The translations under genes and the position numbers were made by a program. From positions 1 to 20,565 of the IMG/VR virus record IMGVR_UViG_3300018065_000083: a stretch of DNA of 20,565 nucleotides; one strand, 5' to 3'. Shown here one piece after another: positions 5,212 through 19,806 of this stretch; position 1 is the first letter of the stretch; each line of letters begins with the position of its first letter. The notes below the pieces were generated by a model. The model made no database searches and was not told the DNA's origin. It saw only the letters and a list, made by a program, of their open reading frames with translations. The stretch comes from a virus.

Positions 5212-5886
5212 ATGGCAACGAAAGTAGACATTGTAAACCTCGCGCTCTCAGGCCTTGGGTCCAAGCAAACGATCCAAGACATCGAGAGTGATCAGAGTGT
5301 GGAGGCACGCACAGCACGTCTTCACTACAGTGTCGCGTTGCTCACTTGTCTCTCTTACGCTAATTGGTCGTTCGCAACCACCTGGGCTACCAGTGCGAAG
5401 CTTGCAGACGACCCGCCTGGTGACTGGGCGTACATGTACGCTCAGCCAGCCAACAACGTAAAGGTCATTGAGATCATCGACAGTCTGAACTCGCGTCGGA
5501 ATCGTCCAGCGAAGTTCGTCAAAGCCAACCACAATGGCCAGATCGTGTACCTGACAGACACAGAGGCGCCGGTGTGGCGCTATGTGTTCAAGAACGAAAA
5601 CCCGGCCACTTACACGCCGCAGTTCGTTGACGCCCTGGCAGCTCAGCTGTCCTCGCGGATGGCTATGCCGCTGACACGCAAGGTCGACTTGGTTAAAAGT
5701 GCGCAGGATACCTACGCACGACTGATCGAGATCGCTGATGCTGCAGACGCGAACGACCAGATGACCCTGGAAGAGCCGGACTTCACCGCCCCGTGGCTTG
5801 AAGCTCGTGGCTACGCTGACTCGTCACAACGGTTCTTGTACACCGATGCGGATGGCAACATCCAAGAGATGGTCGGGAAACTCTGA
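5212..5886 (+). CDS. tail tubular protein A (gp11-like tail adaptor)
   Basis: A 224-residue protein of the T7 gp11 type (196 residues in T7). It forms the ring joining portal and tail nozzle. The opening KVDIVNLALSGLGS, the aromatic helix SYANWSFATTWA, and the segment TPQFVDALAAQLSSRMAMPLT are typical of this family of helical adaptors. The C-terminal APWLEARG-type ending also fits. A TGGAG ribosome site (5201-5205) precedes the ATG. Its stop codon overlaps the ATG of the following nozzle gene by one base (TGATG), so the two partners are probably made in a coupled way. The gene order with the next reading frame is the same as gp11-gp12 in T7. Confidence 0.82.
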   Translation: MATKVDIVNLALSGLGSKQTIQDIESDQSVEARTARLHYSVALLTCLSYANWSFATTWATSAKLADDPPGDWAYMYAQPANNVKVIEIIDSLNSRRNRPAKFVKANHNGQIVYLTDTEAPVWRYVFKNENPATYTPQFVDALAAQLSSRMAMPLTRKVDLVKSAQDTYARLIEIADAADANDQMTLEEPDFTAPWLEARGYADSSQRFLYTDADGNIQEMVGKL

Positions 5887-8048
5887 TGAAAGTCGGACAG
5901 CCGTCGTTCACATCTGGCGAGATTGATCCCTCGCTGCACGCGCGTGCCGATCTGCCGTTGTATAAGACGGCGCTTGAAACGTGCCTGAATTACATCATCA
6001 TGCCGCAGGGTGGGGCGCGTAACCGCACAGGGACCGCATACCGCGGCGCAACGCGTAACAACAACCAGGCACGCCTGGTTGCCTTCGCGTACAACGATGA
6101 TGACTCGTATTTGCTGGAGTTTACCGAGTACCGTTTCCGCGTGTATCGCAACGGTTCTCAGGTACTCCTCCCAAGCACCCCCGCAGCTTGGGTCACAGCC
6201 ACTGCTTATAGCTATGGTGATTTCGTGAGCAACGGCGGGACCAATTACAGTTGTCGCCTGGCACACACCTCAGCGGCAACCGATGAGCCTGGCGTTGGTG
6301 CAAACTGGGAAGACTACTGGATCGCCCTTGAAGACGACATCGTAGAACTATACCAGCCATTCACCTATGCCCAGCTACAGTACATGGACTACGACCAGAG
6401 TGCAGACACCCTGGTGCTCACGCACTCGTCCGCGTACCCGTTGAAGTTGACTCGCAGTGACCACCACGTGTGGGACCTAACAACGCCAGGCTACGCGCCG
6501 TCTACGGCAGCACCAACAGGGCTGTCCGGATCCGGTGGCACCGGTACGACCTACACCTATGTGGTTACGGCTGTGAACGCTGAAACCCTGGAAGAGTCCG
6601 TGGCTTCGGCCAGCACCACCATGGCCGAGGATGGCGGGACACTTACCTGGACAGACGTAGCCGGTGCCGGCAAGTACAACGTGTACAAGCAGGAGCAGGG
6701 CATCTTCGGGTTCATTGGCCAGTCCAGTGACGGGACGACCGGATTCACGGACGCAAAGTACATCGCGGAAACTGAAGACACGCCTCCAGTGGCGCGTGAC
6801 CCATTCGCTTCTACGGCCAAATATCCTTCAGCTGTAGCCTGGCACGAGCAGCGCTTGTGCTTCGGTGGAGCAAACCCGCAACGCATAAACACCAGCCAGG
6901 TTGGAACCTACTTCAACTTTTCGGTGTCTGAGCCCGCCAGTGACGGCGATGCGTTGACGCTGGATGTCGTCACCAACAAGGTGGCTGACATCCGATACTT
7001 GATAAGCCAGATTGATCTGCTTGTGTTCACCGCAGGCGCGGAAGTCCGTGTGACCTCACACGACAGCGCGTTCGTGTTGGACAACCTAAGTCGTAAGACC
7101 CAGAGCGCATACGGGTGCCAGGCTGGGGTAAAGCCGCAGGTAGTTGGCGACAAAATTCTGTTTGTACAGCGCGGTGGTACCGCGGTGCGTGACTTTGCGT
7201 ACAGCCTGGAAGCCGATAAATTCACCGGCGGTGACCTCAGCATCATCGCCAAACACTTGTTCAGCGAAACCTCGGTTGTACGCTGGGCGTATGTAAGTGA
7301 ACCGGAGCCTATCGTGTGGATGGTTACCACGGCTGGCAAACTCATCGGCATGACCATCGCACCAGAACATGAGGTCCTGGCGTTCCACCAACACGAGTTA
7401 GCCGATGATGGCGTTGTTGAAGATGTAGTCACCGTCCCTGAAGGTGACACCACTGCGGTGTACTTTGTAGTGAAACGCACCAAGGTAGGCTCACCTGTAA
7501 GGTACATTGAGAAGCTGTCGACATGGGTTGGCGACCCTACCGAAGACGCCACATTCTTGGACTGTCATTCGACCGGCACCATTACTGGTTCCAAGATCAT
7601 CAACCTTGACCACCTGGAGGCCAAGAACGTCACTGCGTTAATCGACGGTGACGTTGTGTCGAACTTGAACGTGGCAAGCGGGGAGGTCACGCTGCCACGC
7701 ACATACACCAACGCGAAAGCCTGTGTAGGCCTGCCGTATGTGTCGCGCTTGAAGACGTTAGAGCCGCCTATCCAGGACGCCTATGGCAACGAGATGTCGG
7801 TGTCGCGCCTACAGCTCCGCGTGCTCAAGACACGTGGCATTTGGGCTGGCCCAGACGAAGACAACATGACCGAGTATCCTACCAGGCTCTATGAAGACTG
7901 GGGTGACCCGGCTACTACGCACACCGGCGTCATTGAGATCGTAATCGAGCCGACGTGGAGCGGCCGCGGCAAGGTAGTTGTGGAACAGCCAGACCCGCTA
8001 CCGTCGTTTATTTTGGCGCTGGTGCCAGATGTCGAAACCGGGGGTTAA
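5886..8048 (+). CDS. tail tubular protein B (gp12-like tail nozzle) with sugar-binding-like and FN3-like insertions
   Basis: A 720-residue protein in the place of T7 gp12 (794 residues), the hexameric nozzle of the short tail. The N-terminus (FTSGEIDPSLHARADLPLY, then MPQGGARNRTGTAYRG) is a signature of this family of podovirus nozzle or stabilisation proteins. Two insertions stand out. Residues about 102-148 start with WVTATAYSYGDFVS and end in a GANWEDYW motif, resembling chitin-binding CBM5/12 modules. Residues about 210-300 form a fibronectin-III-like domain (APTGLSGS, then TYVVTAVNAETLEESVAS). Both could contact cell surface glycans or fibres, which is inference. The remainder is rich in beta strands. 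The ATG overlaps the preceding stop by one base. The next gene begins inside its last 20 bases. Confidence 0.82.
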   Translation: MKVGQPSFTSGEIDPSLHARADLPLYKTALETCLNYIIMPQGGARNRTGTAYRGATRNNNQARLVAFAYNDDDSYLLEFTEYRFRVYRNGSQVLLPSTPAAWVTATAYSYGDFVSNGGTNYSCRLAHTSAATDEPGVGANWEDYWIALEDDIVELYQPFTYAQLQYMDYDQSADTLVLTHSSAYPLKLTRSDHHVWDLTTPGYAPSTAAPTGLSGSGGTGTTYTYVVTAVNAETLEESVASASTTMAEDGGTLTWTDVAGAGKYNVYKQEQGIFGFIGQSSDGTTGFTDAKYIAETEDTPPVARDPFASTAKYPSAVAWHEQRLCFGGANPQRINTSQVGTYFNFSVSEPASDGDALTLDVVTNKVADIRYLISQIDLLVFTAGAEVRVTSHDSAFVLDNLSRKTQSAYGCQAGVKPQVVGDKILFVQRGGTAVRDFAYSLEADKFTGGDLSIIAKHLFSETSVVRWAYVSEPEPIVWMVTTAGKLIGMTIAPEHEVLAFHQHELADDGVVEDVVTVPEGDTTAVYFVVKRTKVGSPVRYIEKLSTWVGDPTEDATFLDCHSTGTITGSKIINLDHLEAKNVTALIDGDVVSNLNVASGEVTLPRTYTNAKACVGLPYVSRLKTLEPPIQDAYGNEMSVSRLQLRVLKTRGIWAGPDEDNMTEYPTRLYEDWGDPATTHTGVIEIVIEPTWSGRGKVVVEQPDPLPSFILALVPDVETGG

Positions 8049-8496
8049 GTTAGCAAGGGCAGAGGCCTCTGATGTGCTACACATCGTGCACAACCTGCGC
8101 GACGAGGATGCCGCAGAGGTGGCAGCGTCACACGGCCGCAACGCAGAGAGCTTGATCCTGCGTGCTGTAGAACAACACGAGACAACGGTTGCACGCTGTT
8201 ACGGTGAGCCGATCGCCATGTGGGGAGTGGTTCCCGGCCCAATCCTGGTTGGCGGTGGTGTGCCCTGGTTGCTTGGCACTGACAAGATAGTTGAACACCA
8301 GGTGCAGCTGTTACGCGAAAGCCGACCTTGGGTGCAGGACGCACTGGCAGAGTATAAGTACCTCGAGAACTACGTTGACGATCGCAACGAGACCTCAAAG
8401 CGGTGGCTTAAGTGGTTGGGCTTCGAGTTTGATGAACCTGAAAAGTACGGCGTCGAGAACAGACTTTTCCGCCGTTTCTACACCGGAGAATTGTGA
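8029..8496 (+). CDS. internal virion protein A-like (T7 gp13-like, GNAT fold)
   Basis: A 155-residue protein resembling T7 gp13 and related phage proteins with an acetyltransferase-like fold. I chose the ATG at 8029, which gives the start MSKPGVKLARAEASD expected for the family and overlaps the nozzle gene by 20 bases. An in-frame TTG at 7978 would add residues without family character. Supporting segments are GEPIAMWGVVP, VPWLLGTD, LENYVDDRNETSKRWLKWLGF and a final YGVENRLFRRFY, the layout seen in this group. GNAT enzymes bind acetyl-CoA through a Q/RxxGxG/A loop; I see no clear copy here, so activity may be lost. T7 gp13 is needed for infectious particles although its exact role is unclear. 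The ribosome site is weak, suggesting coupling to upstream translation. Confidence 0.75.
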   Translation: MSKPGVKLARAEASDVLHIVHNLRDEDAAEVAASHGRNAESLILRAVEQHETTVARCYGEPIAMWGVVPGPILVGGGVPWLLGTDKIVEHQVQLLRESRPWVQDALAEYKYLENYVDDRNETSKRWLKWLGFEFDEPEKYGVENRLFRRFYTGEL

Positions 8497-8975
8497 TGTG
8501 CGGACCAGCGTTAGCTGTAGCAAGTTTGGTGATGACAGGCATGGGGGCTATACAGCAGTTCCAAGCTGCGAACGCCCAGGCTGAATACGCAGAGGCAGTA
8601 CAGCGCAATAATGACATCATGGCCGATCGCGCGAAGAAGGACGCGATCAAACGTGGCAAGCGCGAAGAGACACTGCGTCGCATGCAGATCAAACAGGATG
8701 TTGGCACTGCCAGGTCAAAGCTGGCTGGTGGTGGATTCGACGTCAACACAGGCAGCGCCCTGACTCGACAGAGCGACATCACGGCAATGGGTGGTGTAGA
8801 GGCGCTGACCATACGCAACAACGCGCAACGTGAAGCCTACGGCATCGGTGTTGATAACTACCGCGAGCGGGCGGCTACGCGCAGTCAGGTTGCGGCGTCG
8901 AAGAACAGAGCAACAAGTTCGCTTATCTCCGGGGCGTCTAGCGTCGCCAGCGGAGCGTACAACTACTTCGGGTAA
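8496..8975 (+). CDS. internal virion protein B-like (gp14-like)
   Basis: A 159-residue protein starting MCGPALAVASLVMTG, the opening typical of T7 gp14-type core proteins. An N-terminal hydrophobic stretch (about residues 4-20) is followed by a long charged helix and a Ser/Ala/Gly-rich C-terminus (SSLISGASSVASGAYNYFG). In T7, gp14 is ejected first and sits in the outer membrane as part of the DNA conduit; a similar role is inferred here. The ATG at 8496 overlaps the previous stop (TGATG) and has GGAG seven bases upstream; a GTG immediately before it (8493) is a less likely start. It is slightly shorter than T7 gp14 (196 residues). Confidence 0.78.
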   Translation: MCGPALAVASLVMTGMGAIQQFQAANAQAEYAEAVQRNNDIMADRAKKDAIKRGKREETLRRMQIKQDVGTARSKLAGGGFDVNTGSALTRQSDITAMGGVEALTIRNNAQREAYGIGVDNYRERAATRSQVAASKNRATSSLISGASSVASGAYNYFG

Positions 8976-8980
8976 CAACG

Positions 8981-10594
8981 ATGGCAATCCGTATCCCCCA
9001 AGTACAACAACGTGGCCTACCGTCAACCACCGGCGTGCGCACACCAAGTGCTGATGCGTTCGGTGCAGGTGTAGGGAGCGCGCTACAGGGCGCCGGCAAT
9101 GAGCTGATGAAGATCGCCCTGGATGAGCGCAACCGCGAAGACGAGACCAGGGCACGCGAAGCGGACACGCTGTACACCCGTAAGCTGAACGATCTTAAGC
9201 GCGGGTACTCGCAACAGAATGGCAAGGTTGCTTTCGAGTCTCAGGAGGACTACCAGAAGGCAGTCGACGAAATCCGGCGCGAGGCGATGGACGGTCTAGC
9301 GAACGACCGCCAGCGCACAATGTTCTCACCCCTGGCTGACCGCAAGCATGGTGAGGCCATCGAGTTCGGTAAAACCTACGCTAGCAAGGCGCTGAAGGAG
9401 TGGGAGATCGGTGAACTGACAGCCCAGGGTGAGATGCACCTTGAGTCTGCTGCGAGTTCATACGGAACACCTGAAGGCGAACAAGAGATGCAGGCCCTGA
9501 TGGAAAACATCGAGGACCTGGGTGAACGCTCAGGCTGGGCACCTGACGTCATAGCGTTGCAAAAACAGAAGATGACCAGCTCTGCTGTTACGAAGAAGAT
9601 CGACAGCATGCTCGAGTCAAACCCGTACGCAGCGCAGCAGATGTTCAAGGACAACCGTGACAAGTTGACCATGGGCGACGCAGCGAAGCTGGACAACAAG
9701 GTCCAGACGTACGTCGACAAACGTGCGGCATTCGACCAGGCAGATCGCATCCTGGCAGAAACTGATGGCGATGCTACGGCAGCGTGGGAAGCAACAAAGG
9801 ACATCCAGGACCCAGAGCGCCGCTCAGCTGTGCAGCGCCTGGTGAAAGAAGACATCCGCATGCGCGACATCATCGAGAAGGACGCGAAGCGGCGCCTGGC
9901 TGATGCAGAGTGGAACAAGATCCTGCAGAGTGAGCGCCCATCCATGCGCGACCTGCCTGTACCTGGGACAGTTGACCCGGCCGTGTACATTTCCATGGAG
10001 AAGTACATCAAGCACAAGCAGGAGAACCCTGGCCGCGACATCAAGACCAACGACGTCCTGATGAACAAGCTGCTGCTGATGGACCGTGATGAGCTTAACG
10101 GCGTAGACCTGAACCAACACCAGCACGAGCTGTCCCCGACGGACCTCGGTAAGCTGAAGAAGTTGCAGAGCGGTGACCCGGAAGAGGTGCGCATCCAGAC
10201 CACCATGTCTGAATTGTACAAGCGCGGATTGGCCGGGGTCGGCATCAACCACAAGAAGGCACCCAAGCGCGCCGCTGAGTTTAAGAGCGACGTTGACCTC
10301 GCGCTCCAGGAAGCCACCGAGGCCAAAGGCAACAAACTCAACGCAGCTGAGCAGAGCAAGATCGTCAACGAAGTGGTGTACCGCCACAAGACGAAGATCA
10401 AGCAAGGCGGCTGGTGGCCGTTCGACGAAGAAATCACCCTGGCCGAGTTCAAGAAACAGCTCCCAGTGGATGCGAACGGCAACACCCTTGCGGACGATGA
10501 GATAATGGCCATCGTTGATGCCATTGAAGCAGAAGACATGGTGGCAACCCCAGAGCGGGTTATCACGTACCTGAAGAAACGCTATACGAGGTAG
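8981..10594 (+). CDS. internal virion protein C-like (gp15-like core protein)
   Basis: A 537-residue, largely helical and highly charged protein between the gp14-like and giant genes, the position of T7 gp15 (747 residues). The N-terminus IRIPQVQQRGLPSTTGVRTPSADAFGAGVG, given here in two parts (residues 3-20 and 21-32), is typical of such proteins, with a flexible start before long helices. Repeated amphipathic helices fill residues about 40-300. In T7, gp15 joins gp16 in a tube that crosses the periplasm during genome ejection. I infer the same role from position and composition. No lysozyme, transglycosylase or peptidase motif is visible, and no membrane segment. The ribosome site is weak (GGGTAA just upstream), and the gap to the previous stop is only five bases, which suggests coupled translation. 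Confidence 0.75.
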   Translation: MAIRIPQVQQRGLPSTTGVRTPSADAFGAGVGSALQGAGNELMKIALDERNREDETRAREADTLYTRKLNDLKRGYSQQNGKVAFESQEDYQKAVDEIRREAMDGLANDRQRTMFSPLADRKHGEAIEFGKTYASKALKEWEIGELTAQGEMHLESAASSYGTPEGEQEMQALMENIEDLGERSGWAPDVIALQKQKMTSSAVTKKIDSMLESNPYAAQQMFKDNRDKLTMGDAAKLDNKVQTYVDKRAAFDQADRILAETDGDATAAWEATKDIQDPERRSAVQRLVKEDIRMRDIIEKDAKRRLADAEWNKILQSERPSMRDLPVPGTVDPAVYISMEKYIKHKQENPGRDIKTNDVLMNKLLLMDRDELNGVDLNQHQHELSPTDLGKLKKLQSGDPEEVRIQTTMSELYKRGLAGVGINHKKAPKRAAEFKSDVDLALQEATEAKGNKLNAAEQSKIVNEVVYRHKTKIKQGGWWPFDEEITLAEFKKQLPVDANGNTLADDEIMAIVDAIEAEDMVATPERVITYLKKRYTR

Positions 10595-10599
10595 TTTCA

Positions 10600-13500
10600 A
10601 TGCCCCTTGACTATAGTGACCTGCGGAGCGATCTGGGCCTCGACACGGAGCAACCCACTCTCTCTGACACGATCAAGTCAACACCAGACTTCAGCCCGGA
10701 ACAGCATGGCCAGGACCTAGAGCTTGGCCGCAAGCTGAACCTGCCGGCAGAAGTTGTACGTGACAACCGCGACCAGGCAAAGCTGGACGTACAGTTCGTT
10801 GATACTCCTGAAGAGGACATCAAGCAGTCTGCTGGCGTCCTGTATAAGCGACTCCGCGAAGATCCCGACTTCGCCGTCCTGACCAAGGACGACATCGCAG
10901 CCATGAAGAGTGTCACCGAACAGGCCGGCCACTGGGACAAGTGGGTTGGCCGCCAAGGCGGCATGCTGCAGAAGCAGCTCGGCGGCACCCAGACCTTCGG
11001 CGGTATCGCCGGCATGATCACTGACATACCCCTGGCAGGCTTGGCCGAGATCACCGGCGAAAGCGATGCCATGAAGGAACATCGCTCTGCGGCCTTTGCA
11101 GAGATGATCCAATCTGGTGTGCGCAACGTACGTGAAGGTCAGAAACTCCTGCAAGAAAACGCAGCTAACGCAGAGCCAGGCAGCCTCCACGAGCTTGCCA
11201 CTGACGTAGCCGATGCACTCCCTCAATTCGCTGTGATGCTGGGCATGGGCATGACCATGGGTCCGGCGGGCAGCGCCGCCGCCTTTATCCCAAACTCTCT
11301 TGGTACCTTCGGTGAATCGATCGCTGAGGGAGAAGATCCAATCGGCGCATGGCGCGATGCCGGCGTGAACTTTGCCACTGAGTACCTGCCCGAACGTATC
11401 CCTCTCAAGATCTATCTCGGCCCGAAGGGTGGCAAGAGCCTCCTCAAGCGTGGGGTTGAAGGCACCATCGCAGAGGGACTGACAGAAGGCCTGACAAACA
11501 TCTTGCAGTCTATGTGGGATGCTGGCACCGTCGACGAGAATGCAACTGTTGGTGATGCAATCGCTGTCCTGTTCAACTCCGAGATGTGGGCTAACACCTG
11601 GCGGGCTATGAAGGCCGGTGGCGTCCTGGGCGCTGGCGGCGCGGTGGTCACCCATCCGTTTGACCCGGAGGTCAAGCAGGAGAAAGCCAACCGCATCATC
11701 CAGGAGGGCATCCAGGAGGCAGAGTCCGCAGAGAACACTGTCGAGCAGCTGAAGCAGCTGGGGCAGAAAGTCCAGCAGACAAAGTTGTTCGGTCGCAACC
11801 GTGAGATCCTGGGCGAGTTCATCGAGGAAGCCTCGGACAGCAAGAACATCTATGTCGACTCCGCAGGCATCAGTGAAGTCTACCTGCAGCTTGGCCAGGA
11901 AGCTGGCGACCAGCTGTTGCGTGACATGGGCATCGATCAACAGGTCGAGGAGCTGAACGCGACCAACGGCGACTTCGTGATGCCGTTGCGTAACTTCGCC
12001 AAGATCATGGACAACCCGTCGTTCGAGCAGCTGTTGCCGCACATGCGCAAGACCGCAGGTGAGCCTACCCTTAACGAGGTGCAAACCCGCCAGGCTGAGA
12101 TCCAGGCAGAAGCGGACAACATCATCACTGAGATCGGTGAAGACTCCGACACCTACGCCAGCGCTGAGCGAGTGCGTATGTCGATCCAGACCGACCTTGA
12201 GCAGACCGGGATGTCTCCGGAAGACGCAGCCGCCAACGCGCTGTTGCACCGGAACTTCGCCCTGGTTGCATCTAAGTGGACCGGCCTCTCCCCTGAAGAG
12301 GCGCACGGCGGCGTACGAGTGGAGCGTGCCGTACAGACCGAAGAAGACACCCCGACCGACGACGGCACCGTCCTCACATCTACTGAAGCCGCAGAGGTCG
12401 CGGCTGACCTGGGTTTGGCTCAACAGACCAAGTTGAACGACACCATCTCGCGCTTACCTGCGTCCCTGCGCGAAGAGATCGACTACGTCAACACCGGCTT
12501 CGAAGACGGTCCAGACCTAGCCGACGCCTTCGAGGATGTCCTCGATCGCGTAGAGTCTGGCGACTTCGAAGTGAACCACCGCCAGCGCCGGGCACTGCGC
12601 GAGGCTGCCATCGAGATGGGCATCTACCGCCCCATCAGCGAAGAAGAGCTGGCGCGTACCGATGTGGTATCGCCTGGCGGCGCGGCAGGGAAGGCGTACG
12701 ACTTCGTACACAACAAACAGAAATACGTCTTCAACAAGCACATCAAAGATGTACCCGCAGCAGCCGATGAAGAGATCGAGTTCGACGAGCTTGAACTGGA
12801 TGAGATCACCCTGGCGCAGAGTGCATCCGTGCGCCGCGGCAATGAGACCCTGAAGAAGTGGGGACTGAATCCTGGCCAGCGCTACCGCACCCGCGAAGTA
12901 GCTATCGCCCTGGAAGCCCGCCAGGCCGCGAAGTACGGTCGCATTGGACTCAAGGACCACAGCACTGAAGCCGAGAGCAAGATTGCCAGGTGGATGGCTG
13001 AAGAAGTTAAGTTCGAGCTAGAGCATCCGGAGACCTCCGGTGTCGGCTGGTACAGCGAGAAGTGGCAGAACGCCATCAGCAAGTTCGCGAAGATCTACCC
13101 AGAGCTGGGTAGTGACCAGGACGCCAGGAACATGTTCACGCTGTTCATGGCCATCACCTCTGACGGCCAGCGCGTGTACAACAACTTCAACCTGGCAACC
13201 AGGCTGTACAGCGAGTACCGCACGGATGGTCGTCTTGATGAAGGATTCAACAGCGGTGGTAAGTCCAACGCATCCATGGTTGGGAACATCAAGCTGATCA
13301 ACAGGCTCCTGGCCGAGAAGTCTCCCGCTGAGATCCACACGTGGCTCCTTGAAGAGCACACCGTCAAGGACCTGAACGCCATGGCCAGGGCTGAGGGCAT
13401 TAAGTTCAGCTCTGGTTACCTGTCAGATGTCAAGCTGCCACGTGCAGCTGTGATGCTGGGTCCGAAGCTGGGCGCCTTCTATGCCAACCTGATGGGCAGC

Positions 13501-16500
13501 CACGGCTACCTGACCATGGACTTGTGGTGGACGCGTACCTTCAACCGCTATCGTGGACAGATGACCGAGCGCCCGACCGAACAGGGCATCGCTCGGTACC
13601 GTAAACTGCTGGATGAGGCAGGCATCGATGTCGCTGAGTACAGCGACGAGGACGTGCTGCTAACCACGATCACTTACGCCAGGACCTACAAGGCGAAGAA
13701 CTACAAGAACGGTAGCGAGATCGAGCGTGCGGCCAATACCTTGTACAAGGCAGCATACGAAAACATCCGCCAGGCGCCGGAGAACGCGTCTGACCGGTCA
13801 TTCATGCTCGCCGCCACCAGGCGTGCCCAGAAGAACCTGAAGCGCAGCGGTGTGGACCTGTCCATCGCTGACCTGCAGGCCATCCTGTGGTATTACGAGA
13901 AGCGCCTGTACGGTGAGCTTGGTGCCAGACAGACCGATGACATCAGCTACGAAGAAGCAGCTGAGCGCGTCGTCAACGAAACAGCAGAACTGAACACTGA
14001 AACGATCGAGGGACCGGAAGGTCAGATCTTCGAGCTGCCAGGTGACGCAGGATTGAACCTGGAAGTCGCACCTGACCCGCACGACATCAACCTGGACTCT
14101 GCTTTCGCAGAACTGTCGTATCAGAACCGCCTAGATGCCACTGTGGAAGTGGCCAATGCAACCGTTGAGAAGGTTGTGGCGGACATGGGTCTCCCCGAGG
14201 TGTCCATTGAGTACACTGCAGGGGGCTACCTCGACCGTGTAAACCCGAGCATGGTCATTCGTTCTCCAGGTCTCAGTCAGGACGACCTGGTCGACCTTGG
14301 CCGGGTCCTGGGGGACATTTTTTCACAAGATTCCGTGGTTGTGTATGACGAGAGCAACACTAACCCGGAGACTTCGGTCAATCACGTACGCATCGCTGGA
14401 TCTCGTGAGCTCTCCGGGGCCGAACAGCAAAAGGTGTACGATCACTTGCGTACCGCCGTGGGCGGCGTAGAGGGCTTCGCAAGCCGTCAGGGCGCCATGG
14501 TGATTGGCGACTTCACCGGCATCGGTGAAACATTCCTGGACGACATCAAGGCCGCCCTGGAAACACTGGATCTGGATGTCAGCCTGAGTCTGAGCCAGAA
14601 ATCATTCACAAGTAGCCTGGAGGACATCAATCGTGGCCAAGGTGAGCGTGCACAAATTGAAGAAGGGCGAGACGTTCTTCGGAGGCGGTCAGGGAATCCA
14701 GATGCGGAGCTTGACTCGTATCGGCGGGACGCAGAAAGGATCCTCCGGCAGCGTCTCCAGACGACCTACGGGCAACCGGTTGCCGCTCAGCCGGTAGATC
14801 ACCCGAGTATCTCTCGCGACAGCCAGGGCGTCCTGCGTGTCGACAAGGAGGGTATGGTCCCGCTGACCCACTGGTCACAACAGGAAGAGCTCAGCACGAT
14901 CTCCCCTGAAGCCGCTGGTACCGGTGTTGACGCCCTGCGCCGCCGGAGCAACCAGGGGCGCCAGCGCGTCACCTACTGGGGCCTGCCTGGCTACCGTGTT
15001 GAGTCCGGGGTAATAACCCTGGCAAAGAGTCGCTACTTCACCCGTGTGAAGCCTGAGAGTCTGTACCACATCTCTGAGGATCCGGACGGCATCTACGATC
15101 GCCTGAAGGCGGAGAACCCTAAAGCGTACCAGCACCAGCTACAGGCCATGTATGAGCAGGCCATCGAGGACGCAGGGTACATGGGCTACTGGGGACAGCA
15201 GGGTAACAACGGCCCGGTCGCAGCGCTGTTCCGCCCGATCGAGGTTGACCAGCCGTATCACACCCACGTCAAGCACAAGGACAAGCACTCGTGGGTGGCA
15301 GGGTACGACCCAGAAGGTAACCACCTGGATGACATGGTCCTTGGTCAGCCAGCTTGGCACGGTAGCGCAAGCGAGTTCGATAGCTTCAGCCTGGAATTCC
15401 TCGGCACTGGTGAAGGTGCACAGGCCTACGGGTGGGGGCTGTACTTTGCGGAAGAGCAGGAGGTCGCTAACTGGTACAAGGAAAAGCTGACCGAGTACGG
15501 AGACGAGGAAGGTCGCCTGTACCGCGTAGACATCGATGTCTTAGAAGACCAGATGCTGATGTGGGACCGCCCCTTGGCTGCTCAGAGCGAGCAGGTGCAA
15601 CGTGTTGTCGAAGAGGCACAGCTTGGCGTCTACACCCACGAAGGGCAGACCGGTGCCTGGACAAGCCTGGAGAACATGAAGGCTGCCGCACGCTTTGGCC
15701 GCTGGAACCTGGACAAGAACAAGGTCAAGCACGTTACGCCAAGCACAGGCCGTCACGTGTACGAGGCCCTGAAGAGCCGCATCGGCAGCGACAAAGACGC
15801 AAGCCTGTGGTTGGCGGAGCGTGGCATCTTAGCCATCAAGTACAAGGACGGCATGAGCCGCACCCGTACCGATCGCTGGACCATCGATGACTCCGCCCTT
15901 GTTGGCGACCAGGCTGCAAGCGGTGAGCTTGCTGCTGTCCTTGAGCGTGCCAACCTGGAGAACGAAGGGTCCGTGCGCAGTCGCCGCATCGATAGCGTAG
16001 GCAAGCTGCGTGCGTTCGTGCGCGCCAAGGCGCCGAACCTGATTGACGAGTTCAACACCCTGGTTGCTGCCGACTTGATCCGCAGCGAAGACAACGCCGC
16101 CTACAACTACGTCGTGTTCGACGCCAGCAAGGTGAGCATCACTGATTACGAGCAGAGCAAGGACCGTCTGCGCGGCAACATCCGCTTCACCCGTGGTGGT
16201 GGCCAACAGGCAGTTATTCGTCTTTTCGAAGAAGCTGACATGTCCACCTTCATCCACGAGAGTGGCCACTTCTTCCTGGAGCGCATGCGTACCCTGGCTG
16301 ACGCCTCCCCGGAGGCTGCCAGGGAGCTGGACAAAATAGTCAAGTGGATGGGCGTTTCTCACCCTGGTGACATCGGTGTCTACCAACACGAGATGTTCGC
16401 GCGCGCATTCGAGGGGTACCTGCGGGAAGGCAAGGCGCCTATCCCTGAGCTGCGTTCAGTGTTCCAGCGTTTCCGTGAGTGGCTGACCAACCTGTACAGC

Positions 16501-19500
16501 GACGTGAAGGCCCTGGATGTGGACATCACTGAGGACATCCGTGAGGTGTTCGACGTGCTGCTCACCGTTGACACCGTGTACGCGCAATCTGAGCGCGACC
16601 TGGCAACAGATCCGCTGTTCGAGGACATGGAACAGGCCGGCATGAACGAGGCCGAGTGGAAGGACTACATAGAGAAAGTTCAGACCTCTCGCGAGATCAG
16701 CCGTGCGAAGCTGGATTCAGAGATGGTGAAGGACGAGATGCGCAAGCAGTCGGCTGACTTCAACCGCAAGGTGGCAGCTGCGCGCGAGGAGATCACTGAT
16801 CAGCTGGTTGGCAACCGCACATACACGGCGCGTAAGTTTCTACAGACTGGAGAAGGCTTCGAGTACAAGCCGTTCAAGTTGAACCGTGAGCAGGTAATCC
16901 GCGACTACGGTGAGGACATTCTGCTGACCCTGCCACGCGGCAAGAACTCCATCCTGGCTGACGACGGCATGGACCTGGATGCGGCTGCTGAGTTGCTTGG
17001 CTACGGTTCCGGCGACCAGCTCATCAAGGACCAGGCCGAGTACGGTGACATCAGCCGAGAAGCGCTGAAGCGCGCACGCGCCCAGGTGGAGCAAGAGATG
17101 GGCTTCACGCCGAAGGACCAGGAAAGCGTGAAGGCGGCAGCGCAGGAAGCACTGATGAACCGTGACCGTGCGGATGTTGTGTACCAGGAGCTGCGAACCC
17201 TGGACCGCCTGACCGGTGGTGTTGGCATACCTCGCAAGATGCTGAAGCGACAAGCACAGCGTCTCATCGGCGAGATGACCATCGGAGAGCTGCGCCCGAG
17301 TCAGTATCTCAACGCATCAATCCGCAAGGCGCGCGATGCTGGCCGATACCTGCGTGCGGGTGATACCGCCAACGCCGCGAAGGCGAAGCGTGCACAGATC
17401 CTGAACCACCTGATGTACATCCAGGCTCGCGACGCACGCAACAAGTCCGAGAGCCAGCGGAGGTATTTCAAGAAGTTCCTGCGTCCTGGCGTGCAGAAGA
17501 ACATCGACAACACATACCTCGATCAGATCTTCAACCTGCTCGAGAACTTCGACTTCAAGGTGGCAACAAGGAAGGAACGTGAGAAGCGAAAAGCACTTGC
17601 ACAATTCGTTGCGGAAAAGATGGCGGCAGGCGAAGAGGTTCTGGTCCCACCGGGCATCATCGAGCAATCTGGTCGCCGCAACTTCAAGGACCTTACGGTC
17701 AACGAGCTGCGTGATCTACAGGACTGGGTCAAGAATCTCGAGCACCTGGGTCGACTGAAGTCGAAGTTGATCGGCGCCAAAACCGCACGCGAATTCCAGG
17801 AAGCCAAGAACGAGATAATCGCCAGCCTGCGCGCGAACAACAAGTGGCATGACCCTGTGCCGGATCGCCGTCGCGACATCGCGAACCGCACCAAGCGCTA
17901 CGTGAAGCAGGCGTACGCGCACCTGCTTAACATGGAGTTCGCCTTCATGAAGCTGGACGGCGATAAGCGCGGCGTCATGTTCGACACCCTGTTCCGCCCG
18001 ATCAGCGAGGCGCAGGACGTCCTGGCCGTTCGCAAGATGGAGGTTACGCAAGACCTGAAAGAGATGAACACCAGGCACGGTATCACTGCCAGGGGGTTGA
18101 AGAAGAAGACCTACATCGAAGAGATCGACGAGAGCTTGACCAAAGAAGAGATCCTGTCCCTGGCCTTGAACTGGGGCAACGAACTCAACCGCCAGCGCGT
18201 ACTGTCTGGCGGCCTGGCGAAAGACGGCAGCGTGTGGAACGAGGGGCAAATCGAGTCTATCCTGGCCAAGCTGAGTAAAGAGGAATGGAACTGGGTACAA
18301 GAGACCTGGGACTATATCAACAATGAGTTCTGGCCTGATATAGCAGATCTCGAGAAAGAGCTGTCAGGTGTTCCACCTGATAAGGTTGAGCCGATGGAGG
18401 TGAACACCCCGTACGGTAAACTGAAGGGCGGGTACTACCCGTTGAAGTACGACGGGGATCTGAGCGAGGTGGCCTACAAGTACGACGAGAAGGCCAGCGT
18501 GCAGGAGATGTTCGGCGGCAACTGGGCGCGTGCAGCAACCCGCCGTGGCCACACCGAGAAGCGTGTTGAGAACCTGGAACGTGCCATCCGCCTGGACCTG
18601 GGTGTCCTGGACCAGCACATCAGCGAGGTGTTGCTTGACCTGACTCACCGCAAGCCAGTTATGGATGCAGTGAAGATTATCAACGACCCTGAGATACAGC
18701 AGGCGATCAAGGCCACCGGCGGCAACGAGATGTACCGCTTGATCAACCCCTGGTTGCAGTGGGTCTCAGGCAGCTACAAGTCGAAGCCTGCCATGTCGTT
18801 CGCTGATGCTTTCTTCCGGCACCTGCGTATCGGCACCAGTGTTGTCGGCATCGGCTTCCGTGTAAGCACCGCGCTGATCAACTTCACCGGTATCTTCCCG
18901 GCGTTTGCTGAACTGCGCAACCCAACGCTGATTCCGAAGCACGCTGCGTACGTCGCCAAGAACCCAATTAAGACATGGGAGTTTATCACCGAGCGCTCTG
19001 AGATGATGAAGACGCGGTCTAAGGTGTTTGACCGCGAAGCGTCGGAACAGCTGAAGAAGCCAAACGTCAACATCGCGATCTGGTACAGCCTGATCGCCAA
19101 GGTCGACCAGATGGTCACGATGACAACCTGGATGGCTGCCTATGAGAAAGGCATGGCAGACAACATGAACGACGAGGCTAAGGCGATCACGTATGCCGAC
19201 AGTGTCGTGCGCACCACACAGTCTTCGTCTCGTGCTGCTGACCTGTCGCGCATCCAGCGCTCTGACAGCGAGCTGAATAAGCTGGTCACCGTGTTCTACA
19301 GCTACTTCAACATGGTGTTCAACCGTCTCGGCCTCGCCGGTCGAAAGATCGCAAAGGGTGACGTGATCGGCTTCACTGGTGATGTCCTGGCTGTAGTCAT
19401 CCTGCCGGCTATCATAGGCGAACTGATCGCAGGCCGCGGCCCGGATGAGGAAGACGAGGATGAGTCAACTGTAGGGTGGGCGGCGAAGTCTGTACTCAGC

Positions 19501-19806
19501 TACACGACTGGCACCATCCCGATTCTGCGTGACATCGCACAACCGTTCATCAGCGGCTTCCAGGCCAAGCCCACTCCCCTGGCTGGCTTCTATGACAACG
19601 TGTCACACATCGCAGGTAAACTGAACAGCGAAGAAGGGGTTGAGCCTGCTGACTTGCGCAAGCCTGTCGTGAACGTGGTTGGCTATCTCGGACACCTACC
19701 AGCTGGGCAGGTTAATAAAACACTCGACTACCTCCTGGATGAGTACCCGGAAGGCGAGGAATCTTTCAACGCATGGCATGCCCTGATGGGCAAACCGAAG
19801 GAGTAA
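10600..19806 (+). CDS. giant polyvalent ejection protein (gp16 position) with ADP-ribosyltransferase-like, zincin and possible HhH domains
   Basis: A 3068-residue protein in the gp16 slot, more than twice the length of T7 gp16 (1318 residues). Order by residue: hydrophobic segments about 128-150 and 206-240, then helical linkers. A globular region at about 800-1030 holds GPKLGAFYANLMG and LTMDLWWTRT (Asp974), similar in layout to HhH-GPD DNA glycosylases. An unassigned alpha/beta region spans about 1165-1335. A possible ART-like domain lies at about 1420-1548 (LTHWS, His1424, then PEAAGTG). A clearer polyvalent-type ADP-ribosyltransferase domain lies at about 1580-1850 (WHGS with His1587, GAQAYGWGLYFAE, ending NYVVFDASKVSI). 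A zincin-like peptidase at about 1870-1970 has HESGH (1886-1890) and HEMFARAFEGYL (1930-1941), which can supply the third zinc ligand. Helical or coiled regions follow to about 2600, then GGYYP (2610-2614), hydrophobic segments about 2740-2770 and 2925-2946, and a conserved-looking VVRTTQSSSR and FYSYFN block. No transglycosylase motif is seen. GAGG sits eight bases before the ATG. Expected to be packaged and ejected into the host, with domains acting early. Family calls are by motif only. Confidence 0.85.
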   Translation: MPLDYSDLRSDLGLDTEQPTLSDTIKSTPDFSPEQHGQDLELGRKLNLPAEVVRDNRDQAKLDVQFVDTPEEDIKQSAGVLYKRLREDPDFAVLTKDDIAAMKSVTEQAGHWDKWVGRQGGMLQKQLGGTQTFGGIAGMITDIPLAGLAEITGESDAMKEHRSAAFAEMIQSGVRNVREGQKLLQENAANAEPGSLHELATDVADALPQFAVMLGMGMTMGPAGSAAAFIPNSLGTFGESIAEGEDPIGAWRDAGVNFATEYLPERIPLKIYLGPKGGKSLLKRGVEGTIAEGLTEGLTNILQSMWDAGTVDENATVGDAIAVLFNSEMWANTWRAMKAGGVLGAGGAVVTHPFDPEVKQEKANRIIQEGIQEAESAENTVEQLKQLGQKVQQTKLFGRNREILGEFIEEASDSKNIYVDSAGISEVYLQLGQEAGDQLLRDMGIDQQVEELNATNGDFVMPLRNFAKIMDNPSFEQLLPHMRKTAGEPTLNEVQTRQAEIQAEADNIITEIGEDSDTYASAERVRMSIQTDLEQTGMSPEDAAANALLHRNFALVASKWTGLSPEEAHGGVRVERAVQTEEDTPTDDGTVLTSTEAAEVAADLGLAQQTKLNDTISRLPASLREEIDYVNTGFEDGPDLADAFEDVLDRVESGDFEVNHRQRRALREAAIEMGIYRPISEEELARTDVVSPGGAAGKAYDFVHNKQKYVFNKHIKDVPAAADEEIEFDELELDEITLAQSASVRRGNETLKKWGLNPGQRYRTREVAIALEARQAAKYGRIGLKDHSTEAESKIARWMAEEVKFELEHPETSGVGWYSEKWQNAISKFAKIYPELGSDQDARNMFTLFMAITSDGQRVYNNFNLATRLYSEYRTDGRLDEGFNSGGKSNASMVGNIKLINRLLAEKSPAEIHTWLLEEHTVKDLNAMARAEGIKFSSGYLSDVKLPRAAVMLGPKLGAFYANLMGSHGYLTMDLWWTRTFNRYRGQMTERPTEQGIARYRKLLDEAGIDVAEYSDEDVLLTTITYARTYKAKNYKNGSEIERAANTLYKAAYENIRQAPENASDRSFMLAATRRAQKNLKRSGVDLSIADLQAILWYYEKRLYGELGARQTDDISYEEAAERVVNETAELNTETIEGPEGQIFELPGDAGLNLEVAPDPHDINLDSAFAELSYQNRLDATVEVANATVEKVVADMGLPEVSIEYTAGGYLDRVNPSMVIRSPGLSQDDLVDLGRVLGDIFSQDSVVVYDESNTNPETSVNHVRIAGSRELSGAEQQKVYDHLRTAVGGVEGFASRQGAMVIGDFTGIGETFLDDIKAALETLDLDVSLSLSQKSFTSSLEDINRGQGERAQIEEGRDVLRRRSGNPDAELDSYRRDAERILRQRLQTTYGQPVAAQPVDHPSISRDSQGVLRVDKEGMVPLTHWSQQEELSTISPEAAGTGVDALRRRSNQGRQRVTYWGLPGYRVESGVITLAKSRYFTRVKPESLYHISEDPDGIYDRLKAENPKAYQHQLQAMYEQAIEDAGYMGYWGQQGNNGPVAALFRPIEVDQPYHTHVKHKDKHSWVAGYDPEGNHLDDMVLGQPAWHGSASEFDSFSLEFLGTGEGAQAYGWGLYFAEEQEVANWYKEKLTEYGDEEGRLYRVDIDVLEDQMLMWDRPLAAQSEQVQRVVEEAQLGVYTHEGQTGAWTSLENMKAAARFGRWNLDKNKVKHVTPSTGRHVYEALKSRIGSDKDASLWLAERGILAIKYKDGMSRTRTDRWTIDDSALVGDQAASGELAAVLERANLENEGSVRSRRIDSVGKLRAFVRAKAPNLIDEFNTLVAADLIRSEDNAAYNYVVFDASKVSITDYEQSKDRLRGNIRFTRGGGQQAVIRLFEEADMSTFIHESGHFFLERMRTLADASPEAARELDKIVKWMGVSHPGDIGVYQHEMFARAFEGYLREGKAPIPELRSVFQRFREWLTNLYSDVKALDVDITEDIREVFDVLLTVDTVYAQSERDLATDPLFEDMEQAGMNEAEWKDYIEKVQTSREISRAKLDSEMVKDEMRKQSADFNRKVAAAREEITDQLVGNRTYTARKFLQTGEGFEYKPFKLNREQVIRDYGEDILLTLPRGKNSILADDGMDLDAAAELLGYGSGDQLIKDQAEYGDISREALKRARAQVEQEMGFTPKDQESVKAAAQEALMNRDRADVVYQELRTLDRLTGGVGIPRKMLKRQAQRLIGEMTIGELRPSQYLNASIRKARDAGRYLRAGDTANAAKAKRAQILNHLMYIQARDARNKSESQRRYFKKFLRPGVQKNIDNTYLDQIFNLLENFDFKVATRKEREKRKALAQFVAEKMAAGEEVLVPPGIIEQSGRRNFKDLTVNELRDLQDWVKNLEHLGRLKSKLIGAKTAREFQEAKNEIIASLRANNKWHDPVPDRRRDIANRTKRYVKQAYAHLLNMEFAFMKLDGDKRGVMFDTLFRPISEAQDVLAVRKMEVTQDLKEMNTRHGITARGLKKKTYIEEIDESLTKEEILSLALNWGNELNRQRVLSGGLAKDGSVWNEGQIESILAKLSKEEWNWVQETWDYINNEFWPDIADLEKELSGVPPDKVEPMEVNTPYGKLKGGYYPLKYDGDLSEVAYKYDEKASVQEMFGGNWARAATRRGHTEKRVENLERAIRLDLGVLDQHISEVLLDLTHRKPVMDAVKIINDPEIQQAIKATGGNEMYRLINPWLQWVSGSYKSKPAMSFADAFFRHLRIGTSVVGIGFRVSTALINFTGIFPAFAELRNPTLIPKHAAYVAKNPIKTWEFITERSEMMKTRSKVFDREASEQLKKPNVNIAIWYSLIAKVDQMVTMTTWMAAYEKGMADNMNDEAKAITYADSVVRTTQSSSRAADLSRIQRSDSELNKLVTVFYSYFNMVFNRLGLAGRKIAKGDVIGFTGDVLAVVILPAIIGELIAGRGPDEEDEDESTVGWAAKSVLSYTTGTIPILRDIAQPFISGFQAKPTPLAGFYDNVSHIAGKLNSEEGVEPADLRKPVVNVVGYLGHLPAGQVNKTLDYLLDEYPEGEESFNAWHALMGKPKE
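19798..19803 (+). promoter_or_regulatory. ribosome binding site of the tailspike gene
   Basis: AAGGAG ends immediately before the stop codon of the giant gene and lies six bases ahead of the ATG at 19810. It sets the tailspike start and lets the two genes be translated nearly back to back. Confidence 0.7.

Follow-up and report, generated by a model that had tools for sequence, protein, structure and literature searches.

The giant protein encoded in the window, the whole 20,565-base stretch of viral DNA analysed here, is, on comparison with its relatives, polyvalent in its architecture, with conserved N- and C-terminal chassis around a variable cargo slot. One domain in the slot, module A, is related to DUF7178 and probably has an HhH-GPD fold of the Ogg2 type. 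Taken jointly, the chassis-slot architecture and the HhH-GPD identity of module A are fairly likely. The original prediction had described a multi-effector polyvalent protein, and it is supported in part: an ADP-ribosyltransferase (ART) domain, a zincin, a probable glycosylase-like domain and LPD22 are present in one chain within a virion gene block, while entry into the host and action ahead of phage gene expression are predictions. The ART, zincin and glycosylase-like signatures are conserved features of the family and not chance motifs.

The giant frame is uninterrupted on the plus strand, with an ATG at 10600 and a stop at 19806, and its translation has 3068 residues. It makes up 45% of the window, in line with the earlier statement that almost half of the window is a single frame. 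A Shine-Dalgarno-like GAGG is located upstream of the gene, and the next gene begins 3 nt past its stop. A second, independent metagenome contig encodes residues 1-1714 of the protein at 99.9% identity. The frame is confirmed as a real gene.

The gene order in the window is portal (PF12236, 1.6e-157), Bbp19-like, GP7-type major capsid protein (6e-143), Bbp16 cement protein (3.8e-17) and two tail proteins, and then the ejection genes. A tailspike with a pectate-lyase-like fold begins 3' of the giant gene. These matches indicate that the window is the virion gene block of a BPP-1-like podophage. The ejection genes are as follows.

8493 to 8975, plus strand: T7 gp14-like internal virion protein (PF24072 3e-7, phrog_418)
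8981 to 10594, plus strand: gp15-position protein, 537 aa, with a phrog_10475 match at its N-terminus
10600 to 19806, plus strand: giant polyvalent protein of 3068 aa, third among the ejection genes (gp16 position), by translation and gene order

The earlier assignment of a gp16 position is correct, because the gene order puts the giant protein third in the ejection cluster, after the gp14 and gp15 counterparts. The protein also resembles T7 gp16, a virion protein delivered with the DNA, in being the third and large product of the ejection genes and in having a hydrophobic segment near its C-terminus. However, no sequence homology to T7 gp16 and no SLT or peptidoglycan hydrolase domain was detected in it with Pfam or PHROG, where only phrog_9880 matches the chassis; therefore, the likeness to T7 gp16 is positional only. 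The gp16-like proteins surveyed previously range from 609 to 1337 residues, with membrane segments close to the C-terminus, and the hydrolase is absent in some of them (PMC8954989). The position after the gp14 and gp15 counterparts, the size and the hydrophobic segment fit a gp16-type ejection protein.

Other genes of the block have features of their own. The gp15-position protein lacks a lysozyme or transglycosylase domain, while SLT (5e-29) is present in the protein at the corresponding position of Pseudomonas phage AF. Since neither this protein nor the giant protein contains such a domain, a peptidoglycan-opening activity was not located in the window. The nozzle-like tail protein (5886-8048) has a carbohydrate-binding module (PF02839 CBM_5_12, aa 101-137) above its cut-off. 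Between the nozzle and gp14-like genes, a protein of about 155 aa (7978-8496) has no Pfam match and looks like a GNAT acetyltransferase by eye.

The architecture of the giant protein was mapped as follows.

10600 to 12489, plus strand: N-terminal chassis, aa 1-630, with phrog_9880 matches at aa 25-117 and about 410-630
10669 to 10914, plus strand: LPD22 (PF18834), aa 24-105, below the curated cut-off
12490 to 16170, plus strand: variable cargo slot, aa ~631-1857, differing in length and content among relatives in the architecture map
13990 to 14832, plus strand: unassigned stretch X of the slot, aa 1131-1411, with homologues in L003 and L010 and otherwise only in near-identical contigs
16630 to 19803, plus strand: remainder of the C-terminal chassis, aa 2011-3068 (about 1,050 residues), with a phrog_9880 score of 1020 bits
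19363 to 19419, plus strand: hydrophobic segment, aa 2922-2940, from a Kyte-Doolittle scan

The slot has the order A-X-B-ART: the DUF7178-homologous module A (~395 residues), X, a possible second ART-like domain and ART-PolyVal. Stretch X has no match in Pfam or PHROG. Pfam searches of slices matched LPD22 (E=1.9e-5) and ART-PolyVal (7e-6), but both are under their curated cut-offs. The whole protein had no phmmer match in the PDB, and the gene had no megablast match among phage records. PADLOC and NCBIfam scans gave nothing useful.

The chassis is found widely and the slot between its parts changes. The C-terminal chassis (about 1,210 residues; the query was the C-terminal 1268 aa) has homologues in 43 phage records, including BPP-1 (Bbp10), Pseudomonas phage AF, Caulobacter phage Jess A, Xanthomonas phage CP2 and Vibrio phages. 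In the ORF numbering used for the segment mapping, its first residue is 765 in BPP-1 and 799 in Vibrio phage 1.021.A; in Caulobacter phage Jess A it is 832, in AF 1018, in CP2 1269 and in Cobetia phage Carin1 1625. The value for this protein is 1858, and that for L023 is 3008. The hydrophobic segment is about 130 aa from the C-terminus, and the distance is similar in several relatives. The family phrog_9880, for which no function is assigned, covers both ends of the protein and has only ~225 positions at the slot, versus ~1,230 residues here. Its member Bbp10 of BPP-1 occupies the same gene position, and its C-terminal chassis and zincin are homologous (31% over ~1,180 aa). Bbp10 has 2,052 residues, and segment mapping detected no module A, module B or ART in it; its slot of ~130 residues is about 10 times shorter.

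The cargo also differs in kind and order. In contrast to A-X-B-ART here, the modules are arranged as B-ART-A in L024, B-A in L012 and ART-A in L023. A Pfam scan of 17 giant proteins, this one included, found LPD22 in all 17 (best 2e-18), ART-PolyVal in nine (best 2e-46), PBECR5 in three, and one match each to a methyltransferase and to ASCH. Transglycosylase and C5 DNA methylase were found with Pfam in a more remote set of giants. Judging from these matches, the slots of the relatives carry ART, PBECR5 RNase or methyltransferase cargo. One giant in the 17-protein scan also weakly matches Mycobacterium phage L5 gp82 (PF25735), which may be another relative. The divergence of module A correlates weakly with that of the zincin over 20 loci (Mantel r 0.22, p 0.09), a result which fits cargo exchange without proving it.

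The protein could also be a structural ejection protein in which the cargo consists of non-catalytic passengers or spacers and the zincin acts in assembly. Its gp16-position context and the hydrophobic segment close to the C-terminus, which gp16-like proteins also have, would suit this, as would ART and LPD22 scores under the cut-offs. However, active-site residues are kept across very divergent relatives, and cargo sets are swapped between conserved chassis, which is unexpected of inert filler. The matches are also not restricted to structural ejection folds, with ART, zincin and DUF7178-related domains present. It is therefore very unlikely that the protein is purely structural.

Compared with the phage-type polyvalent proteins surveyed by Iyer et al. 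2017 (PMC5512222), the chassis-plus-cargo protein is similar in being very large, multidomain and encoded among virion genes, and it has LPD22, ART and an HExxH zincin in common with them. It differs in having a DUF7178/glycosylase-like domain and a chassis in the podophage ejection-protein position. The word glycosylase is absent from the text of that survey (PMC5512222). The one paper found to name both DNA glycosylase and polyvalent protein treats the two separately, and no mention of DUF7178 was found in the literature search. The combination of domains, earlier suggested to be perhaps new, is not unique: polyvalent proteins often pair ART with a zincin (PMC5512222), and ART occurs together with the DUF7178 module in other, related uncultured phages as well.

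Module A and its proposed catalytic residues are located as follows.

12805 to 13989, plus strand: module A, aa 736-1130 (~395 residues), DUF7178-related by hhalign, AlphaFold2 and Foldseek
13465 to 13467, plus strand: Lys956, proposed catalytic lysine (GPK), identified from its invariance and the Ogg2 sequences
13519 to 13521, plus strand: Asp974, proposed catalytic aspartate (TMD), 18 residues past Lys956

An hhalign comparison of module A with DUF7178 resulted in E=1.5e-8, and in 9.5e-15 once free-standing members were added (0/80 shuffles). The protein itself scores 14.0 bits against PF23802 (DUF7178), under the cut-off of 27, while the relative L025 passes with 32.1. In the module A alignment, 27 of the 36 members match PF23802, mostly weakly. 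Free-standing DUF7178 proteins, such as Gordonia phage WilliamBoone gp181 and Mycobacterium phage prophiGD54-2 gp151, have the WY, GPK, D.W and QA..W motifs in common with module A. They are about 200 aa long and stand alone, whereas module A has large insertions and is inside a giant protein. Other annotators deposited free-standing DUF7178 proteins of Gordonia and Mycobacterium phages as glycosylase, N-glycosylase or N-glycosylase/DNA lyase. One free-standing DUF7178 protein, in Tunturiibacter phage Tunturi_3 (L131:2902-3498), is annotated as a portal protein and is probably misannotated.

The middle of the giant protein found 39 IMG/VR loci, and further ones in bacterial genome contigs and plasmid records. 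On a Bosea plasmid (L092:4854-6455), a relative of module A accounts for the greater part of a 533-aa protein. Since no phage genes are listed near this copy, the domain also occurs in cellular replicons. Among predicted structures of uncultured phages, module A has strong matches that bear the names ART-PolyVal or large polyvalent protein. The record of Limnohabitans phage DC33 (L091, PQ492659.1) gives Inoviridae, but the genome is 39 kb with a giant podophage-type protein, so the taxonomy looks wrong.

The AlphaFold2 model of module A is all-helical and confident (pLDDT 88). By probability, its top Foldseek match in the PDB is 3knt, at 0.54, with the next at 0.12 among the 50 matches listed. 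Entry 3knt is the M. jannaschii Ogg2, an archaeal 8-oxoguanine glycosylase/lyase. A remote DUF7178 domain from other giant phage proteins, with different sequences, was also modelled (pLDDT 75), and 3knt was again the match of highest probability (0.47, next 0.28 among the 50 matches listed); human OGG1 is listed as well. No PDB match is significant, 3knt included (E about 1.2, TM 0.39-0.44, with 0.39 for the remote model). The DUF7178 profile scored 26.6-35.4 against Ogg2, and sets of 80 shuffles reached at most 15.9 and 19.3. For the score of 35.4, the column shuffles have a mean of 12.3, an SD of 2.2 and a maximum of 19.3. This signal consists of 39-48 columns at the C-terminal helix, away from the catalytic segment. 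Direct hhalign comparison of module A with Ogg2 was not significant, with the best full-length Ogg2 alignment falling on the Lys-Asp segment, and neither was that with 29 EndoIII/MutY-type glycosylases. Sequence searches of the PDB with the module A and DUF7178 profiles returned chance matches only.

Lys956 and Asp974 correspond to the catalytic Lys (of bifunctional enzymes) and Asp of HhH-GPD glycosylases. All 54 of 54 sequences have both residues, and DUF7178 has an invariant equivalent pair. The module A segment LGPKLGAFYANLMGSHGYLTMDLWWTR aligns with a 28-residue segment of 3fhf, and the Lys and Asp are 18 apart in both. The entry 3knt has Gln at the position equivalent to Lys956. Module A resembles the Ogg2-type 8-oxoguanine DNA glycosylase/AP lyases (3knt, 3fhf, 3n0u, 9o00; sequences taken from PDB alignments) in its G.K-(18)-D pair and C-terminal Trp helix. 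Ogg2 is its top-probability fold match, yet the TM-score is below 0.5 and module A has no direct sequence significance. An HhH-GPD fold is probable because the two models, the DUF7178-Ogg2 score, the invariant Lys and Asp and the deposited names combine, and no single test settles the matter. The same lines of evidence suggest that the DNA-glycosylase-like domain of the original prediction was probably a right guess. Whether module A is an active glycosylase is evenly balanced on these residues and comparisons.

An attack on nucleic acids, as had been proposed, is not the only way to read a glycosylase-like domain, which may instead repair or protect the incoming phage DNA or modify bases. Module A may have the HhH-GPD fold but repair or protect the incoming phage genome, for example from oxidised or UV-damaged bases, with no role against the host. 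The nearest match by structure is to a repair enzyme, phage T4 has a repair glycosylase in its endonuclease V (PMC7824862), and the contigs come from environmental viruses. Free-standing DUF7178 genes are located outside virion blocks, and the Tunturi_3 copy is directly 3' of an annotated DNA ligase gene. However, the companion cargo domains, ART and PBECR5, are effector types, and a repair role is a possibility of somewhat less than even weight.

It is less likely, and on the whole improbable, that module A derives from HhH-GPD proteins but modifies bases or only binds DNA, for example as a relative of amino acid:DNA transferases. The viral structure library also gives an amino acid:DNA transferase domain-containing protein (probability 0.35), and C5 DNA methylase is present in the giant protein of one relative. 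On the other hand, no modification gene is seen in this partial window, and mere binding would not need an absolutely conserved Lys-Asp pair with Ogg2 spacing. Amino acid:DNA transferase was rejected as the prime identity of module A, because the structural match is weak and no literature was found, and is kept only as a rival.

The ART region contains two features, of which the first is the better matched.

15352 to 16143, plus strand: ART-PolyVal (PF18760), aa 1585-1848
14833 to 15264, plus strand: module B, aa 1412-1555, with a conserved H.S...GTG...DP..L...AGY.GY, from its homologues and a weak ART match

The domain slice is below the curated cut-off for PF18760, as noted above, and matches phrog_873 at 4e-14. 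Together with the PF18760 matches in relatives, this supports the ADP-ribosyltransferase motif reported earlier. In the Tox-ART-HYD2 clade, the His is on strand 1, the Tyr on strand 2 and the Asp on strand 5 (PMC5512222). The proposed H-Y-D residues here are His1587, Tyr1615 and Asp1842, with Asp1842 the least certain. Of the 140 positions of PF18760, the match spans only 10-98, and ~85 extra residues precede Asp1842. Module B has homologues in L012, L024, L025 and L091 and in Nostoc/Microcystis phages. It has a weak 21-column match (H.S...GTG) to the ART alignment, with a score of 21.1 against a shuffle maximum of 16.5 (0/60 shuffles), and may be a second ART-like domain. A search of IMG/VR with the B-ART stretch recovered only one near-identical contig.

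The zincin adjoins the slot.

16171 to 16629, plus strand: zincin-like metallopeptidase region (aa 1858-2010), conserved across 30 homologues, Bbp10 of BPP-1 among them

The HESGH motif is at aa 1886-1890 (16255-16269, plus strand). Its His, Glu and His are kept in 28-29 of the 30 aligned homologues, and an HE..A...E.Y pattern farther along the chain is invariant in 30/30, so the zinc peptidase motif noticed earlier is well conserved. The third zinc ligand is probably Glu1931, which is conserved among the homologues. Since the region matches no curated family, the grounds for calling it a zincin are the motif, its conservation and how often MPTase domains occur in polyvalent proteins.

The polyvalent-protein survey suggests that the MPTase processes the chain, at a stage that varies: P1 DdrB, the N4 RNA polymerase and plasmid proteins differ in whether this happens ahead of packaging, inside the head or within the host (PMC5512222). 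The N4 virion RNA polymerase is similar to the giant protein in combining MPTase and effector-like domains; the giant protein has no RNA polymerase. The zincin may process the chain before or during packaging so that only part of it enters the virion and the cell, as P1 DdrB, with a C-terminal MPTase, is processed before packaging (PMC5512222). However, the N4 virion RNA polymerase also has an MPTase and is packaged unprocessed (PMC5512222), and early processing is somewhat unlikely.

In the proposed course, the giant protein would be made late, together with the virion proteins, and packaged as a third internal virion protein. The gp14- and gp15-position proteins would then thread it into the host along with the DNA, and the C-terminal chassis would insert in, or pass, the inner membrane. 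The zincin adjoining the slot could cut the chain in cis and free the cargo. In the cell, the ART domain would ADP-ribosylate a host protein. Module A would act on DNA as a glycosylase and perhaps also as an AP lyase, with Lys956 and Asp974 allowing excision of a specific damaged or modified base. Packaging is very likely and delivery into the cytoplasm reasonably likely, while the prospects for and against cis cleavage by the zincin seem equal. The literature search found no virion proteomics on the giant protein or any homologue. The most specific form of the proposal, a virion-delivered DNA glycosylase/AP lyase that is exchangeable podophage ejection cargo and is used beside ART on host or competitor DNA early in infection, is rather unlikely.

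Polyvalent proteins and ART and zincin cargo are already known, and the ART and DUF7178 combination is recurrent and not unique to this window. DUF7178, a family without assigned function, gains a likely fold and candidate catalytic residues and is placed among the effectors that phages probably inject. The BPP-1-type giant protein, which has no assigned function in nearly all records examined, becomes a chassis-plus-cargo system. Since the slot can be read by comparison of relatives, new phage effectors may be found between LPD22 and the zincin.
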